This document shows positions 38,559 through 47,383 of a stretch of DNA of 64,000 nucleotides, in pieces. Both the position numbers and the translations under genes were made by a program. The stretch comes from Mesonia oceanica (GTDB taxonomy: Bacteria; Bacteroidota; Bacteroidia; Flavobacteriales; Flavobacteriaceae): NCBI RefSeq assembly GCF_902499555.1, contig NZ_CABVMM010000007.1:62001-126000 (forward strand), in the 5' to 3' direction. The notes under the pieces are model-generated. The model was not told the DNA's origin and made no database searches. It was given only the letters and a program-made list of their open reading frames with translations. The stretch's first letter is position 1. Each line of letters opens with the position of its first letter.

Positions 38559-38631
38559 TGGCCTATGGTGTAACTGGCAACACGTCTGGTTTTGGTCCAG
38601 AAGAGTCTAGGTTCGAGCCCTAGTAGGCCAA
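38559..38631 (+). tRNA. tRNA-Gln (anticodon TTG)
   Basis: 73 bases. Acceptor stem TGGCCTA / TAGGCCA pairs fully, discriminator A at 38631. The anticodon arm TCTGG-TTTTGGT-CCAGA puts TTG at the anticodon. The T arm contains GTTCGAG. CCA is not encoded. Followed by an intrinsic terminator. Confidence 0.97.
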
Positions 38632-38640
38632 CAAGAATGA

Positions 38641-38672
38641 AAACCCAACCTTTTTAAGGTTGGGTTTTTTTA
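38641..38672 (+). terminator. Terminator of tRNA-Gln
   Basis: AACCCAACCTT / AAGGTTGGGTT stem with a 3-base loop followed by seven T. Confidence 0.9.
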
Positions 38673-40332: not shown

Positions 40333-41838
40333 GTGAAGAAATTTTTAATTATTCTAACCTCTATAATAGCCATTATTGTCTTGGCATATTTTATACTTCA
40401 AAGCCTTGCTGAAAGTAAAATTGAAAGTTTTCTGCAGAAAGAAATAGAATTCAAAGAAGTAGATGTAAATTTATGGAAGGGAAGTGTAAAGGTTTTTCAG
40501 CCTAAATTCAATAGAGATGGAAAAAACATTCAAACTGAAAAAATTAGTGCTTCCGGTTTTAGTTACTACGATTATTTAGTGGATAAAAAGATAGTGGTAG
40601 ATGAACTTATTATTCATCAACCCGTTATCGAAATTGTGTCTTCAAATTCATCAAAAGATTCTACTTCAACAAAAAAATCTAAATCATCAAAATTTAAGAA
40701 AGACGTAGTTGTAAAGAATGTGAAGTTAGAAGATGGAAAATTATCTTTTCAGCAGGACACTTTAAGAAAATTAAAAGTCGAAAATTTCTCTGTACAAATA
40801 GATTCTTTAGGTCTTAATGAAAACACCTTGAAGCAAAAAGTACCTTTTCAATATAAAAACTTTTTAGTGAGTCTTTCTCGGTTAGATTATACAGTTAATG
40901 AATTACAGGATATTGCAGTAGAACATTTGGAGTTGACTCCCTCTCAAGTTGAATTCACTCAAATTGATTTAAAACCCCGTTTTTCTAGACAAGATTATGT
41001 GGAAGTAATTCCATATGAAAAAGACCTGATGAATTTAAAGCTGAAGAAATTAAATATAGAAGATTACGATTTCGTACTCAACGATTCCGGAAACGAATTT
41101 GATGCAAAGAAAGTGGTTTTAGATTCTATATATTTTACTATTTATCGCGATAAAACTGTAAAAGATGATACCCGGAAAAAGAATCTCTACAGCAAAATGC
41201 TCCGGAATTTAAAATTGAAATTGTCTATTGATAGCGTAAAAATTAAACGCGCTTATATTGAGTATGAAGAATTAATTCAAAAATCAAGACCGCCAGGAAA
41301 GTTGTTCTTTGAAGATTTAAATGTAGATATAGCCCATGTCACTAATAAAAATCTAGGTAGAGAGGATTTTCCTGAAACCAAAATTTCAATTCAGTCTCAA
41401 TTTATGGGTAAGTCTCCTATTCAAGTAGATTGGGGGTTTAAAGTGAATAACCCCAACGATGTTTTCACCATAAGCGGAAGTAGTCATAACATTCCGCAAG
41501 AATCTATTAATTCCTTTTTTGTGCCTGCTATGTCCATAAAAACACAGGGAGAAGTAAATGATCTCTATTTTAATTTTAGAGGGAACTCTGTACAGGCAAG
41601 TGGAGATTTAGGTATAGATTATGAAAATTTTAAAATAGAGGTGTTAAAGAAAGGGAGTTCAGAAAAAAAAGGTTTCATGAGTTTTCTTGCCAACCTCGCT
41701 GTAAAGAAAAATTCCAAAAAGAATGGCAGTACAGAAAAGCATGTAGATGCTGTTGAACGTGATCCTACCAAATCTTTTTGGAATTATTTCTGGGTATGCA
41801 TCGAAGCTGGGCTTCGCAAATCGATTATTGTATTTTAA
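40333..41838 (+). CDS. AsmA/DUF748-like membrane-anchored protein
   Basis: 501 residues. One N-terminal membrane helix (FLIILTSIIAIIVLAYFILQ), then a long periplasmic beta-rich region. Segments such as VDVNLWKGSVKVFQPKF and DIAHVTNKNLGREDFPETKI are typical of DUF748/AsmA-like proteins that bridge inner and outer membranes. Start codon is GTG (40333). The C-terminal end runs 14 bases into the convergent Usp gene. Role in lipid or envelope homeostasis is likely from family knowledge, not proven here. Confidence 0.75.
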   Translation: MKKFLIILTSIIAIIVLAYFILQSLAESKIESFLQKEIEFKEVDVNLWKGSVKVFQPKFNRDGKNIQTEKISASGFSYYDYLVDKKIVVDELIIHQPVIEIVSSNSSKDSTSTKKSKSSKFKKDVVVKNVKLEDGKLSFQQDTLRKLKVENFSVQIDSLGLNENTLKQKVPFQYKNFLVSLSRLDYTVNELQDIAVEHLELTPSQVEFTQIDLKPRFSRQDYVEVIPYEKDLMNLKLKKLNIEDYDFVLNDSGNEFDAKKVVLDSIYFTIYRDKTVKDDTRKKNLYSKMLRNLKLKLSIDSVKIKRAYIEYEELIQKSRPPGKLFFEDLNVDIAHVTNKNLGREDFPETKISIQSQFMGKSPIQVDWGFKVNNPNDVFTISGSSHNIPQESINSFFVPAMSIKTQGEVNDLYFNFRGNSVQASGDLGIDYENFKIEVLKKGSSEKKGFMSFLANLAVKKNSKKNGSTEKHVDAVERDPTKSFWNYFWVCIEAGLRKSIIVF

Positions 41839-42661
41839 AAGTAATCACTGGGGTTTTAGCGTGATTAACCAAATCTTCGCTAATGCTTCCATTTAAAAAA
41901 TGAGCCAAGCCTTTTCTTCCGTGAGTGCTAATTCCTATTAAATCAGCATTCATTTTAGCGCTGAATTTTAAAATTCCTTTTTCAATAGATTCGGCGTTAT
42001 ACACATTTAAGGTGTAATTTTTAAAATCGACACCTTCTAAAAACTTGTTCATTTTTTTCTCAAGCTGTTCGGTCGTTTTAAATTTATTGGCAGTATTAAT
42101 GTAAACCAAATGTATTTTAGCGCCTATTTTTTCAGCAAATTTGGTAGCCTCTACAAAAGAGTTTTTAACGTTAGGAACAAAATCGCTCGCAAATACTAAG
42201 TCATTTGTATTTAAAATATCGGTTTTCTCTTTAATCACCAATACTGGGATATCAGAATTTCTTACCACCTTTTCAGTATTAGAGCCAATAAAAACTTCTT
42301 TCAGTCCACTTGCTCCGTGAGACCCCATTACAATTAAATCGCAATCATTTTTTTTGCCGACTTCTAGAATCCCGTTAAAAGTTTCTTTAAAAATAACGGT
42401 CTCGTATACCGGAATACCATTTAAGATTTCCTTTTGTTTTACCTTTTCAAACTTTTCATGAGCTTTTCTCATAAAAAATATGGCTTCAGGAACTTGGTTG
42501 CTCCCGGTAGAAGTTGGGTTTAAGTCTATGAGTTGTTCTGGAAGCTCCAGTAAATGTAAAAGGTAAATCTCGCTGTCATATTTTCGAGCTAACTGTGATG
42601 CGGCCTCTAACGCATAATCTGCTTGCTCAGAAAAATCTGTTGGGACAAGAATTTTTTTCAT
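41825..42661 (-). CDS. Universal stress protein, two tandem Usp domains
   Basis: 278 residues, paralogue of the protein at 17580-18446 with the same two-domain plan. Starts MKKILVPTDFSEQADYALE. Domain 1 has the ATP signature GSHGASGLKEVFIGS, domain 2 the weaker GISTHGRKGLAHFLNGS. Its 3' end overlaps the convergent AsmA-like gene by 14 bases. No partner genes on the same strand, unlike the first copy. Confidence 0.9.
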   Translation of the reverse strand: MKKILVPTDFSEQADYALEAASQLARKYDSEIYLLHLLELPEQLIDLNPTSTGSNQVPEAIFFMRKAHEKFEKVKQKEILNGIPVYETVIFKETFNGILEVGKKNDCDLIVMGSHGASGLKEVFIGSNTEKVVRNSDIPVLVIKEKTDILNTNDLVFASDFVPNVKNSFVEATKFAEKIGAKIHLVYINTANKFKTTEQLEKKMNKFLEGVDFKNYTLNVYNAESIEKGILKFSAKMNADLIGISTHGRKGLAHFLNGSISEDLVNHAKTPVITFKIQ

Positions 42662-42754: not shown

Positions 42755-42762
42755 TATATTTG
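42755..42762 (+). promoter_or_regulatory. -7 element of the rimP-nusA-infB promoter
   Basis: TATATTTG matches TAnnTTTG. TTT at 42733-42735 lies 19 bases upstream, a weak -33 box. It lies 25 bases before a terminator-like leader hairpin. Confidence 0.6.
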
Positions 42763-42787
42763 CAAGCGGAAGTTAAAAATGAATATT

Positions 42788-42814
42788 GAGGGGACAATCT
42801 AGTCCCCTCTTTTT
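42788..42814 (+). promoter_or_regulatory. Terminator-like hairpin in the rimP leader (attenuator candidate)
   Basis: A perfect 8-bp GC-rich stem GAGGGGAC / GTCCCCTC with a 6-base loop, then five T. It has every feature of an intrinsic terminator but lies between the promoter and rimP, 13 bases before its ATG. Since nusA is in the operon, NusA-dependent attenuation is a natural idea. Confidence 0.75.
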
Positions 42815-42827
42815 ATAAAAGTTTTTC

Positions 42828-43289
42828 ATGCGGGAAGAAGTAGTAAAAAGACTCATTGAGGAAGCGCTGGAAGAAAACCCATCACTGTTTTTAATTGAAT
42901 TTGAAATCAAGGGTGATAATCAAATTTTAGTTGTTATAGATGGCGATCAAGGCGTTTCAGTGAACGATTGTATAGCGGTTAGCAGAAAAATTGAACATAA
43001 TTTAGATAGGGAAGAAGAAGATTTTTCCCTAGAAGTAACTTCAGCAGGGGCTACTTCCCCTTTACAGCTTGCGCGTCAATACCAAAAGAACTTGGGGAGA
43101 AAGCTGGAAGTGAAAACCGAAGAACAACAATTTGAAGGAAATTTAGAAGCTGTTACTGAAGAGGGGATTACCCTTACTTGGAAAGCAAGAGAGCCTAAAC
43201 CGGTAGGGAAGGGCAAAGTGACTGTTAAGAAAGAAGCTGTGTTAACATACGCAGACATTGTAGAAGCAAAAGTGAAGATAACATTTTAA
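42828..43289 (+). CDS. rimP: Ribosome maturation factor RimP
   Basis: Needed for late 30S assembly. 153 residues. The N-terminal domain shows the segment DQGVSVNDCIAVSRKIEHNL, and the second half begins LEVTSAGATSPL, both usual for RimP. First gene of the conserved rimP-nusA-infB operon, 12 bases before nusA. Confidence 0.96.
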   Translation: MREEVVKRLIEEALEENPSLFLIEFEIKGDNQILVVIDGDQGVSVNDCIAVSRKIEHNLDREEEDFSLEVTSAGATSPLQLARQYQKNLGRKLEVKTEEQQFEGNLEAVTEEGITLTWKAREPKPVGKGKVTVKKEAVLTYADIVEAKVKITF

Positions 43290-43301: not shown

Positions 43302-44537
43302 ATGGAGAATATCGAGCTAATTAGTTCTTTTTCAGAATTTAAAGATGATAAGTTGATAGATCGTGTAACCTTAATGGCGATCTTAGAAGATGTGTTTAGA
43401 AATGCCTTGAAAAAGAAATTTGGAGAAGATGATAATTTTGATATAATTATAAACCCTGATAAAGGGGATTTAGAAATTTGGAGAAATAGGGTCGTAGTGG
43501 CAGATGGTGAAGTTGAAGACGATAACCAAGAAATATCACTCTCCGCAGCAAGAAAAATTGAACCTGACTTTGAGGTAGGGGAAGATGTTTCTGAGGAAGT
43601 AAAATTAATAGATTTAGGGAGAAGGGCAATTTTAGCGTTAAGACAAAACTTAATCTCTAAAATTCATGAACACGATAATACCAATATCTACAAACAGTTT
43701 AAGGATTTAGAAGGAGAGATTTACAGTGCTGAGGTTCACCATATTCGTCATCGTGCCATCATTTTACTAGATGATGAAGGTAACGAATTGGTCATGCCAA
43801 AAGACCGACAAATTCCTTCAGATTTCTTTAGAAAAGGAGAGAATGTAAGAGGTGTAATAGAAAGTGTAGAGTTAAAAGGTAACAAACCGGTAATTATCCT
43901 TTCTAGAACAGCGCCTGTGTTCTTGGAAAAATTATTTGAACAAGAAATCCCAGAAGTTTTTGATGGGTTGATTACGGTTAAGAAAGTAGTAAGGATACCA
44001 GGTGAAAAAGCAAAAGTAGCTGTAGATTCTTACGATGATAGAATTGATCCTGTAGGAGCTTGTGTGGGAATGAAAGGTTCTCGAATTCACGGAATTGTTC
44101 GTGAGTTAGGGAATGAAAATATTGACGTTATTAATTATACCACCAATAGTCAATTGTTAATAACTAGGGCTTTAAGTCCTGCGAAAGTAATGTCTGTGAA
44201 AATTGACGACGAAACTAAAAGGGCAGAAGTTATGTTGAAGCCTGAAGAGGTTTCAAAAGCAATTGGTCGTGGAGGTCACAATATTAGGTTGGCAGGTCTT
44301 CTTACCGGCTATGAAATTGATGTTTATAGAGACGGTGAAGCGGAAGAAGATGTAGAACTTAGGGAATTTAGTGACGAGATTGAAGATTGGGTAATTAAAG
44401 AATTTTCACGTGTAGGTTTAGATACCGCAAAAAGCATCATTGAAAAAGATGTAAGTGACTTGGTGAAAATGACAGATTTGGAAGAAGAAACTATTCAAAA
44501 TGTAATCCAAATCTTAAAAGAAGAATTTGAAGACTAA
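43302..44537 (+). CDS. nusA: Transcription termination/antitermination protein NusA
   Basis: Binds RNA polymerase and controls pausing, termination and antitermination. 411 residues: N-terminal polymerase-binding domain (1-130), S1 domain (about 135-200), then two KH domains (CVGMKGSRIHGIVREL and AIGRGGHNIRLAG). The C-terminal acidic repeats of E. coli NusA are absent, as usual in Bacteroidota. Middle gene of the operon and possible regulator of its own leader hairpin. Confidence 0.97.
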   Translation: MENIELISSFSEFKDDKLIDRVTLMAILEDVFRNALKKKFGEDDNFDIIINPDKGDLEIWRNRVVVADGEVEDDNQEISLSAARKIEPDFEVGEDVSEEVKLIDLGRRAILALRQNLISKIHEHDNTNIYKQFKDLEGEIYSAEVHHIRHRAIILLDDEGNELVMPKDRQIPSDFFRKGENVRGVIESVELKGNKPVIILSRTAPVFLEKLFEQEIPEVFDGLITVKKVVRIPGEKAKVAVDSYDDRIDPVGACVGMKGSRIHGIVRELGNENIDVINYTTNSQLLITRALSPAKVMSVKIDDETKRAEVMLKPEEVSKAIGRGGHNIRLAGLLTGYEIDVYRDGEAEEDVELREFSDEIEDWVIKEFSRVGLDTAKSIIEKDVSDLVKMTDLEEETIQNVIQILKEEFED

Positions 44538-44609: not shown

Positions 44610-47327
44610 ATGGCTGAAGCAAAAAATGTGCGATTAAATAAGGTATTACGTGAATTCAATATTTCATTGGACCGCGCTGTGGAGTATCTCTCTTCACAGG
44701 GGTACGATATTGATGCGCGTCCTACCACTAAAATTTCAGGTGAAGTTTATCAGGTTCTCTTTGAAAAATTTCAAACAGATAAAAGTAAGAAAGTAGCTTC
44801 TAAAGAAGTGAGTGAAGAGCGCAAGAAAGAGAAAGAAGAACTTCGTCTAGCTCGTGAAAAAGAGCAGCAGGAAAAATTACGCAAATTAGAAGAGGAGCGT
44901 AAAAAGAAAGAAGAGGAAGAGAAGGAGAAGGAGAAAGAAAGGCAGAAAGAGAAAGAGCGTATAGTTAAGGCTACAAGTAAATTGGATGGCCCTAAACAAG
45001 TAGGGAAAATAGATCTTGATAAAGGTAGAAAGCCTAAAAAGCAAGAGCCTAAAAAAGAGAATAAGCCTCAGCCTCAAAAGCAAGAAAAACCTGAGCCGGA
45101 AACTAAAAAACCGGTGGCTTCTTCAGTTAAAAAAGATACCGAAAGCACACCTAGTGCGCCTAAAGAAGATCGAGTGGAAACCAAGTACCAAAAACTCGAT
45201 GGTCCTAACTTTACAGGTCAGAAGATAGACTTAAGTCAATTTAAAAAGCCTGCGAAGAAGAAAGACGATAAGAAAAACGAAAAAGCTTCAGATAATAAGA
45301 AGAAGCGTAGAAGAAGAATTAGTAAAGATTCTGGTAGCGGTAATAATAAAAAAGGAAACTTCAACAAAGGCAACAATAGAGGACCGGCACGCGGAAGAAA
45401 GAAAGTTGCTAAGGAAGAGCCTACAGAAGAAGAAGTACAAAAGCAAATTAGAGAGACCCTAGAAAAACTTCAAGGGAAATCATCTAAAGGTAAGGGTGCT
45501 AAATATAGAAGAGATAAGAGAGATCAGCACCGTCAAAAAACCGAAGAAGAACAAGCGCAATTAGAGCAAGAAAGTAAAACACTTAAAGTAACAGAGTTTG
45601 TTACGGTAAGTGAAGTGGCTACGATGATGGATGTACCGGTAACAAAGGTAATTTCTGCTTGTATGTCACTGGGAATGATGGTGACGATGAATCAGCGTTT
45701 AGATGCTGAAACCTTAACTATTGTTGCTGAAGAATTTGGTTATGAAGTAGAATTTGTTACGGCAGATCTTGAAGAAACCGTTGATGTGGAAGAAGATGCG
45801 CCGGAAGATTTATCCCCTCGTGCTCCAATTGTAACCGTAATGGGTCACGTAGATCACGGTAAAACCTCTTTACTGGATTATATTCGTAAAGCTAATGTAA
45901 TTGCAGGAGAGAGTGGTGGTATTACCCAGCATATCGGAGCCTATGGAGTAGAGTTGGATAGCGGTCAAAAAATAGCATTTTTAGATACACCGGGTCACGA
46001 AGCTTTTACGGCGATGAGGGCTCGTGGAGCACAAGTTACCGATATTGCGGTGATTGTAATTGCAGCAGACGATGATGTGATGCCGCAAACCAAAGAAGCT
46101 ATTTCTCACGCTCAGGCAGCAGGAGTTCCTATTATTTTTGCGATAAATAAAGTGGATTTACCAACCTCTAATCCAGAAAAGATTAAAGAGAAACTTGCTT
46201 CTATGAATTTATTGGTAGAAGACTGGGGAGGTAAAGTTCAGTCGCAAGATATTTCAGCAAAACAAGGAACCGGGGTTAATGAATTACTTGAAAAAGTTCT
46301 TTTAGAAGCAGAAATTTTAGAGCTACAAGCCAATCCAGATAAATTAGCTTCTGGAGCAGTGGTAGAGGCTTATTTAGATAAAGGTAGAGGTTATGTTTCT
46401 ACCATTCTTGTTCAGGCAGGAACCCTTAAAATTGGTGATTATGTGTTAGCCGGTACTACTAGTGGTAAGATCAAAGCGATGCAGGATGAGCGAGGTAATA
46501 ATGTAAAAGAGGCAGGTCCTTCAACGCCGGTATCTATTTTAGGGCTTGATGGTGCGCCACAAGCAGGAGATAAGTTTTCGGTGATGCAGGATGAGCGTGA
46601 GGCGAAAGAAATTGCTGCTAAACGTACACAGTTGCAGCGAGAGCAAAGTGTAAGAACACAGCGTCATATTACCTTGGATGAAATTGGTAGACGTATTGCA
46701 CTTGGTGATTTCCAAGAGCTGAATATTATCTTGAAAGGTGATGTGGATGGTTCTGTGGAAGCCTTAACAGATAGTTTCCAGAAATTATCTACAGAAGAAA
46801 TACAAGTAAATATTATCCATAAAGGAGTTGGGGCTATTACAGAAAGTGATGTGTTGTTAGCTTCTGCTTCAGATGCGATTATTATCGGATTTAACGTAAG
46901 ACCGGCAGGAAATGCTAGTCAGGTTGCGGACCGTGAAGAAATAGATATTAGAACATATTCTATCATCTACGATGCAATCAACGACTTAAAAGATGCGATG
47001 GAAGGTATGCTTTCACCAGAATTGAAAGAGGAAGTTACCGGTACCGCAGAGATTAGGGAAACCTTTAAAATTTCTAAAATCGGAACCATTGCAGGTTGTA
47101 TGGTGACCAGTGGAAAAATTTACAGAAATAGTGGTATAAGACTAATTAGAGAAGGTGTGGTTGTCTATACCGGAGAATTAGCTTCCTTAAAACGTTTTAA
47201 AGACGATGTAAAAGAAGTTTCAAAAGGTTACGATTGTGGTATGCAGGTGAAGAATTACAATGATATTAGAGAAGGAGATGTAATTGAAGCTTACCGAGAA
47301 GTAGAGGTGAAGAAAACGCTTAAATAA
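44610..47327 (+). CDS. infB: Translation initiation factor IF-2
   Basis: GTPase that brings initiator tRNA to the 30S subunit. 905 residues. An N-terminal domain ([20 protein letters not shown]) is followed by a long Lys/Glu-rich linker (about 60-310), common in this phylum. The G domain has [17 protein letters not shown] and NKVD. Domains II to IV follow. Ends the rimP-nusA-infB operon with a strong terminator behind it. Confidence 0.98.
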
Positions 47328-47347: not shown

Positions 47348-47383
47348 AAAAAAAGCGACTTGATCATCAAGTCGCTTTTTTGT
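47348..47383. terminator. Bidirectional terminator behind infB and the SPOR gene
   Basis: GCGACTTGAT / ATCAAGTCGC, a perfect 10-bp stem, flanked by A on the left and T on the right, between two convergent genes. It can serve both strands. Confidence 0.85.

Follow-up and report, generated by a model that had tools for sequence, protein, structure and literature searches.

NusA and IF2 belong to the core set of factors for transcription and translation, and leaders preceding their operon have been described in several settings. The rimP-leader, a terminator hairpin followed by a T-stretch before rimP-nusA-infB, was reported with a role for NusA proposed, in the part of that paper available to us (Naville and Gautheret 2010, PMC2965389). 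In B. subtilis, termination in the leader lets NusA regulate its own synthesis (available sections of the review PMC12288461), and by RNA-seq in S. agalactiae transcription ends 31 nt past its start, at a predicted intrinsic terminator preceding rimP-nusA-infB (PMC4448216, in its accessible part). Closest in taxonomy is Flavobacterium psychrophilum, whose rimP has a structured 5′ element reported also from other genera and without Rfam matches; the accessible part of that paper gives neither sequence, mechanism nor wider distribution (PMC9723704). The word Bacteroid does not occur in the main text of PMC2965389, and the main text of a B. thetaiotaomicron map names no rimP, nusA or infB (PMC7366714).

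We analysed a 64,000-nucleotide stretch of the Mesonia oceanica genome (the window), which contains this operon with the following features.

42755-42762, plus strand: putative promoter box TATATTTG of the TAnnTTTG type, read from the sequence
42766-42769, plus strand: probable transcript start, placed a few nucleotides past the box by the usual spacing
42788-42795, plus strand: hairpin 5′ arm GAGGGGAC, from sequence and family comparison
42796-42801, plus strand: hairpin loop AATCTA, letters not conserved
42802-42809, plus strand: hairpin 3′ arm GTCCCCTC, from sequence and family comparison
42810-42817, plus strand: U-tract TTTTTATA, broken after five T
42828-43289, plus strand: rimP (Pfam RimP_N and RimP C-terminal domain)
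43302-44537, plus strand: nusA (Pfam NusA_N and KH_5)
44610-47327, plus strand: infB, encoding IF2 (Pfam IF-2, IF2_N and GTP_EFTU)
47349-47381, plus strand: terminator-like hairpin closing the operon, from a terminator scan, used as a control; its letters differ among relatives

TAnnTTTG is the promoter motif of Bacteroidota, and we assign the box to this type. A minus-strand gene at 41825-42661, presumably universal-stress-protein-like, stands back to back with rimP, and the 166-nt intergenic region holds, in order, the box at 42755-42762, 25 nt, the hairpin, TTTTTATA, 10 nt and the rimP ATG. The initial annotation had placed a perfect 8-bp GC stem with five T between promoter and first gene. 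The placement is right, the hairpin at 42788-42809 lying between the box and rimP at 42828; the eight pairs and the T-run of five are likewise there, but the stem is not all GC, having six G-C and two A-T pairs. Because the neighbouring gene lies on the opposite strand, the hairpin is not its 3′ terminator. Hairpin and rimP are only 18 nt apart, too close for a second promoter to fit between them, so that transcripts from the visible promoter must cross the hairpin; further promoters could lie within rimP or nusA. The closest other rimP has 95% identity (on a contig titled Salegentibacter sp. R32), followed by Mesonia sequences at 82-83%.

This leader resembles the rimP-leader of PMC2965389, in the available part of its description, in having a short hairpin with a T-stretch in the 5′ UTR of rimP-nusA-infB, a G-rich 5′ arm and a C-rich 3′ arm, and in its general form, which includes no larger conserved element or antiterminator; the gene distance of 4-130 nt given there we count as a further likeness. 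It differs at the loop side, where the rimP-leader has GGGc/gCCC and the window instead has GAGGGGAC/GTCCCCTC, ending in GGGGAC/GTCCCC, although some relatives do carry GGGC/GCCC (for example L303 and L308-L310). The gammaproteobacterial rimP leader, Rfam RF01770, precedes the same operon and its second hairpin, GGGC..GCCC followed by U, follows the same plan, but it has an additional upstream hairpin that the window leader lacks. RF01770 has no match in the window leader (E up to 10) or in seven Bacteroidota sources (E up to 1), whereas the E. coli leader (L252), searched as a control, matches at 102 bits. More generally, Rfam families gave no credible match for the leader. The initial statement that E. 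coli uses different sequences is accordingly half right, as the second E. coli hairpin, GGGC-UUUAG-GCCC with seven U, shares its general layout. In B. subtilis the leader is longer (the accessible text of PMC2965389 cites 180 nt), and its NusA-stimulated intrinsic termination is known from experiment, in contrast to M. oceanica, where it would be an inference. That of S. agalactiae is likewise very short but belongs to another phylum and was seen in RNA-seq (PMC4448216, available part). The F. psychrophilum element, before the same gene and in the same family, is very likely the same element. What we describe is thus known as a kind and has probably been seen before in the family; what we add is a Bacteroidota-wide description and the evidence from rimP loss given below.

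On its own sequence the hairpin is mildly unusual. A simple scan of 12 kb found eight terminator-like sites where shuffles predict 7.4, so that a single-sequence scan alone is no proof; the fold of the 60-nt leader has an energy of -17.5 kcal/mol (z -2.87), equalled by 3 of 200 shuffles. It is comparison across genomes, not the single sequence, that makes the case for the putative element.

The exact stem, GAGGGGAC and GTCCCCTC separated by 3-10 nt, is present in 109 of 149 Flavobacteriaceae genomes, at a single site in each, while the same pattern written backwards was found in one of the 149; the stem reads the same on both strands, and the pattern therefore matches each of them. It is unique in the window's own genome, where a covariance model, run to look for other genes with this leader, scored 39.8 bits at rimP and 29.6 at the next site. 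Upstream of rimP, the exact stem is present at 123 of 156 family loci, a set made up of the best matches of several searches plus 20 loci picked because they lack the exact pattern, and in which at least three contigs appear twice (L005/L060, L009/L073 and L011/L080). In the other 33 a hairpin-like variant can be made out by eye, though several are imperfect; three more family genomes without the pattern (L265-L267) were read by eye only. The hairpin score exceeded the 99th percentile of shuffles at 149/156 family, 24/25 class and 27/35 phylum loci, and at one of three loci of family f2. Among order-level leaders an algorithm found the hairpin in 17 of 20 and not in L314-L316, all of family f2, and some phylum members, too, lacked a clear stem by algorithm. 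This finder missed stems visible by eye in L149, L289, L314-L316 and, in part, L138-L140, and its best pick was a hairpin other than the leader in L201, L207, L315 and L316. Conservation of the stem, which the initial annotation had made a check on its proposal, is seen as exact letters at most family loci and as a hairpin through the class and at most phylum loci.

Around the fixed stem, other parts vary. The 123 exact stems enclose 44 different loops of 4-7 nt and are followed by the U-tract TTTTTATA in 90 cases and TTTTATTA in 21. At 122 of these loci the stem begins 22-30 nt past the end of the last TAnnTTTG box (15 nt in the remaining one), and the rimP match starts 11 to 118 nt past the stem. 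A near-fixed spacing to the box combined with a variable spacing to the gene indicates an element tied to the transcript start rather than to the start codon. One group of the family (L006, L015, L020, L021, L115, L204, L206 and L209) keeps the 5′ arm GAGGGGAC with the 3′ arm GTCCTCTT, which converts two pairs to G.U and is accompanied by a longer T-run.

Where stem letters change, they change in pairs. Paired variants in the family are GAGCGGAC/GTCCGCTC, GAGAGGAC/GTCCTCTC, AAGGGGGC/GCCCCTC and GAGGCACG/CGTGCCTC, and at class level GAGGGAAC/GTTCCCTC and GAAGGGAACG/CGTTCCCTTC. An alignment of 30 chosen rows showed changes on both sides in seven of eight stem pairs, a number reached by none of 500 shuffles, and pairing in 92.5% of cells, against 82.9% when shuffled and 42.5-73.3% when the partner was slid; because the rows were chosen to include variants, these figures speak for pairing being kept when letters change, and not for how often they change. 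Covariation counts from alignment A2, which contains both strands of this near-palindrome, were left out for that reason. The 5′ arm is G-rich in all 24 class hairpins above threshold, whereas the 27 phylum hairpins above threshold divide into 13 with a G-rich 5′ arm, 13 with a C-rich one and one tie. Two phylum families, f16 and f34 (L172-L176, L197 and L198), have an inverted stem, TCGCCC..GGGCGA, with the C-rich arm first and the same T-tract after it.

Which gene the leader serves cannot be read from conservation alone, because rimP and nusA are neighbours in every genome compared: their matches lie on one contig and one strand, at most 333 nt apart, in all 59 class- and phylum-level genomes for which the two could be placed (the 60th, G249, has no listed rimP row). 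Lineages without rimP, however, are natural deletions for asking this question. Pfam RimP_N had no match in 66 of 393 genomes of the order; among the 20 of these that were listed, 14 are f57 genomes of 0.3-0.6 Mb. Twenty-three genomes without a rimP match were examined for nusA, and all but G402 had one. From the count of rimP loss we left out the set L293-L298; L284 (contig edge); L277, L278 and L281, in all three of which the contig starts with nusA at base one; and L285, L288, L290 and L292, which do have rimP upstream (by Pfam RimP_N in three and by NCBIfam RimP only in L285). In L285 (G465), whose sequence contains undetermined bases, the Pfam search alone had missed rimP; L288 and L290 served as rimP-bearing rows of the tree described below.

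Nine genomes (1.4-4.6 Mb) lack rimP ahead of nusA and have no match above the Pfam cut-off anywhere else, the three weak sub-threshold matches in f32 being far from nusA; in all nine, sequence resembling the IF2 N-terminus follows nusA, by eye. Eight of them (L274, L275, L276, L279, L280, L283, L287 and L291) carry, by algorithm, a hairpin and T-tract immediately ahead of nusA, at 26-146 nt from its match, a distance too short to hold rimP, and between 0 and 4 of 300 shuffles equalled it. In L289, the ninth, a 4-bp GGGC..GCCC followed by six T is seen by eye only. As a control, such a hairpin was found within 200 nt before nusA in one of 30 rimP-bearing genomes. Candidate frames upstream in L276, L287, L289 and L291 gave no RimP match. 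The covariance model recognized only L275 clearly (E 1.4e-5); L283, L274, L276, L280, L279, L291 and L289 scored E 0.03 to 4.2, and L287 was not among the listed matches, so that for most rimP-less leaders the case is one of position and fold, not of letters in common. The reduced f57 genomes readable upstream (L282 and L286, 0.3-0.6 Mb) have lost rimP, and no GC hairpin is visible ahead of their nusA.

Traced along a NusA tree with 60 rows, presence or absence of rimP switches seven times, and well-supported branches force five of these switches. The rimP-less groups are G004 (family f1), G433, f47, f51, f53, the reduced f57 and, outside the class, f32; G433 stands beside three f56 relatives that have rimP, and the branches of f51 and f53 are long and unsettled. 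Completeness is 88% for G403, 92% for G408 and G433 (the latter 7% contaminated) and 93% for G004, while G410, in one contig, reaches 99% and the f32 genomes 100%; given the incomplete genomes, our claim of rimP loss concerns only what adjoins nusA. A hairpin is kept in six of seven rimP-less lineages, f57 being without it as far as readable. We found no paper on retention of the hairpin after rimP loss in the open-licence literature, in a search only partly aimed at this point; cases without rimP do not figure in the available part of PMC2965389.

Retention before nusA in six of the seven lineages disfavours RimP as target or sensor, as judged from these sequences, and leaves NusA or IF2, which this comparison does not separate because infB follows nusA. 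From other systems NusA is known to favour the folding of hairpins, and pausing, at the RNA exit channel. The reading that we favour, and hold to be probable, is that the element is a promoter-proximal intrinsic terminator whose readthrough sets the output of the operon, most likely under negative feedback by NusA. The terminator would begin about 20 nt after the transcript start; RNA polymerase would either stop at about +48, releasing a leader RNA of about 50 nt, or read through into the operon. More NusA would give more termination and hence less NusA, IF2 and, where present, RimP, so that NusA level and polymerase speed could set readthrough with no antiterminator structure required. An attenuator-type leader, as the initial annotation had suggested, is well supported by the comparative evidence, namely its promoter-tied position, its presence across the phylum, the compensatory changes and the lack of room for a second promoter in the 18-nt gap. 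That it terminates transcription we infer from its build and from the precedents. NusA is the likely sensor, an assignment strengthened by retention of the hairpin before nusA after rimP loss; IF2 may fill that role instead, however, and the two reduced genomes without a hairpin before nusA, the three of 20 order leaders and the phylum members without a clear stem, and the weak covariance matches outside L275 also count against NusA feedback.

The terminator after infB provided a comparison, a rough one, since some algorithm picks are doubtful (at least two, L229 and L236, look like the wrong hairpin). It was found by algorithm in 22 of 30 same-family stretches, most of the 30 showing one by eye. 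The 22 have 20 different arms, and ten have an unbroken T-run of seven; the leader U-run is five in 95 and four in 27 of the 123 exact-stem loci. The median U-tract score is 4.06 for the leader against 5.09 after infB, and the median hairpin energy -15.1 against -11.8 kcal/mol. NusA-dependent terminators of B. subtilis, as characterized in the accessible part of PMC8060035, have distal U-tract interruptions and weak hairpins. The leader has such an interruption, and its U-tract is shorter than that after infB, which speaks for NusA feedback; its stem is stronger than those of the infB terminators, which speaks against it.

Several other readings have to be weighed against feedback by NusA. The same anatomy would serve a terminator that cuts operon output by a constant factor, tuned through stem and U-tract and sensing nothing, the sensor of the favoured reading being a putative one, and the G.U-weakened 3′ arms (L006, L015, L020, L021 and L115) look like such tuning. 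We nevertheless consider this unlikely: the element is kept through the class, in most sampled phylum families and before nusA after rimP loss, which exceeds the apparent need of a constant factor, for which a weaker promoter would suffice, and the precedent leaders are regulatory. The near-fixed stem letters of the family are also more than a plain terminator would need, and raise the question of a protein that recognizes the letters of the hairpin and governs termination or readthrough, be it IF2, an RNA-binding protein yet to be named or, once a candidate, RimP. For this speak the 16 stem letters, exact at 123 of 156 family loci where 22 infB terminators show 20 arms, and the available text of PMC2965389 makes the same argument from the fixed letters of the rimP-leader. 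Above the family level, though, stem letters vary freely and the 5′ arm is C-rich in 13 of 27 phylum hairpins, and RimP in particular is disfavoured by the six rimP-less lineages that keep the hairpin; we judge the whole proposal improbable.

A role after transcription, in which the hairpin guards the mRNA 5′ end or controls translation of the first gene, would suit its place near the 5′ end and the many loci where it lies only 11-31 nt before the rimP match. Such a role seems very improbable, given that the T-tract is kept with the stem, that the distance to the gene reaches 118 nt and that the first gene can switch from rimP to nusA. Leader-peptide attenuation could be imagined from a seven-codon frame at 42779-42802 (ATG AAT ATT GAG GGG ACA ATC TAG, in the window and its close relative L031), whose stop lies in the loop and whose translation would open the terminator; but an ATG frame stopping inside the hairpin occurs in only 3 of 123 exact-stem leaders (L001, L031 and L095) and any spacer ATG in 17, and this lack of conservation leaves the model nearly refuted. 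An antiterminator in the spacer also found no support, the 5′ arm having no spacer partner of more than two G-C pairs at any of the 123 loci. Between the downstream 54 nt and the 3′ arm, pairing reaches at most three G-C in 117 loci and four to five in six.

Were NusA feedback to hold, NusA self-control would extend to the Bacteroidota, and the so-called rimP-leader would seem to be a nusA leader in truth; it would also be a very small termination switch, whose letters could be tested singly. Going further, one may speculate, with considerable doubt, that this is an ancient, phylum-wide autoregulatory terminator of nusA-infB acting just after promoter escape, belonging to nusA and not to rimP, with the stem letters in Flavobacteriaceae held by a protein that reads them, perhaps through the KH domains of NusA; the intrinsic terminator would then contain an RNA recognition element specific to this lineage.

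Two minor observations concern tRNA genes. Within the window, a strong hairpin at 38639-38669, flanked by A- and T-runs on both sides, directly follows a tRNA gene at 38559-38631; it appears on either strand in the scan, but its minus-strand tail is poor in T. Elsewhere, a tRNA gene of closely similar sequence lies shortly upstream of the leader in L274 (1263-1335), L275, L279, L280, L207, L213 and L216, lineages with and without rimP, as seen by eye, and in L264 an Rfam tRNA match falls at the same upstream place.
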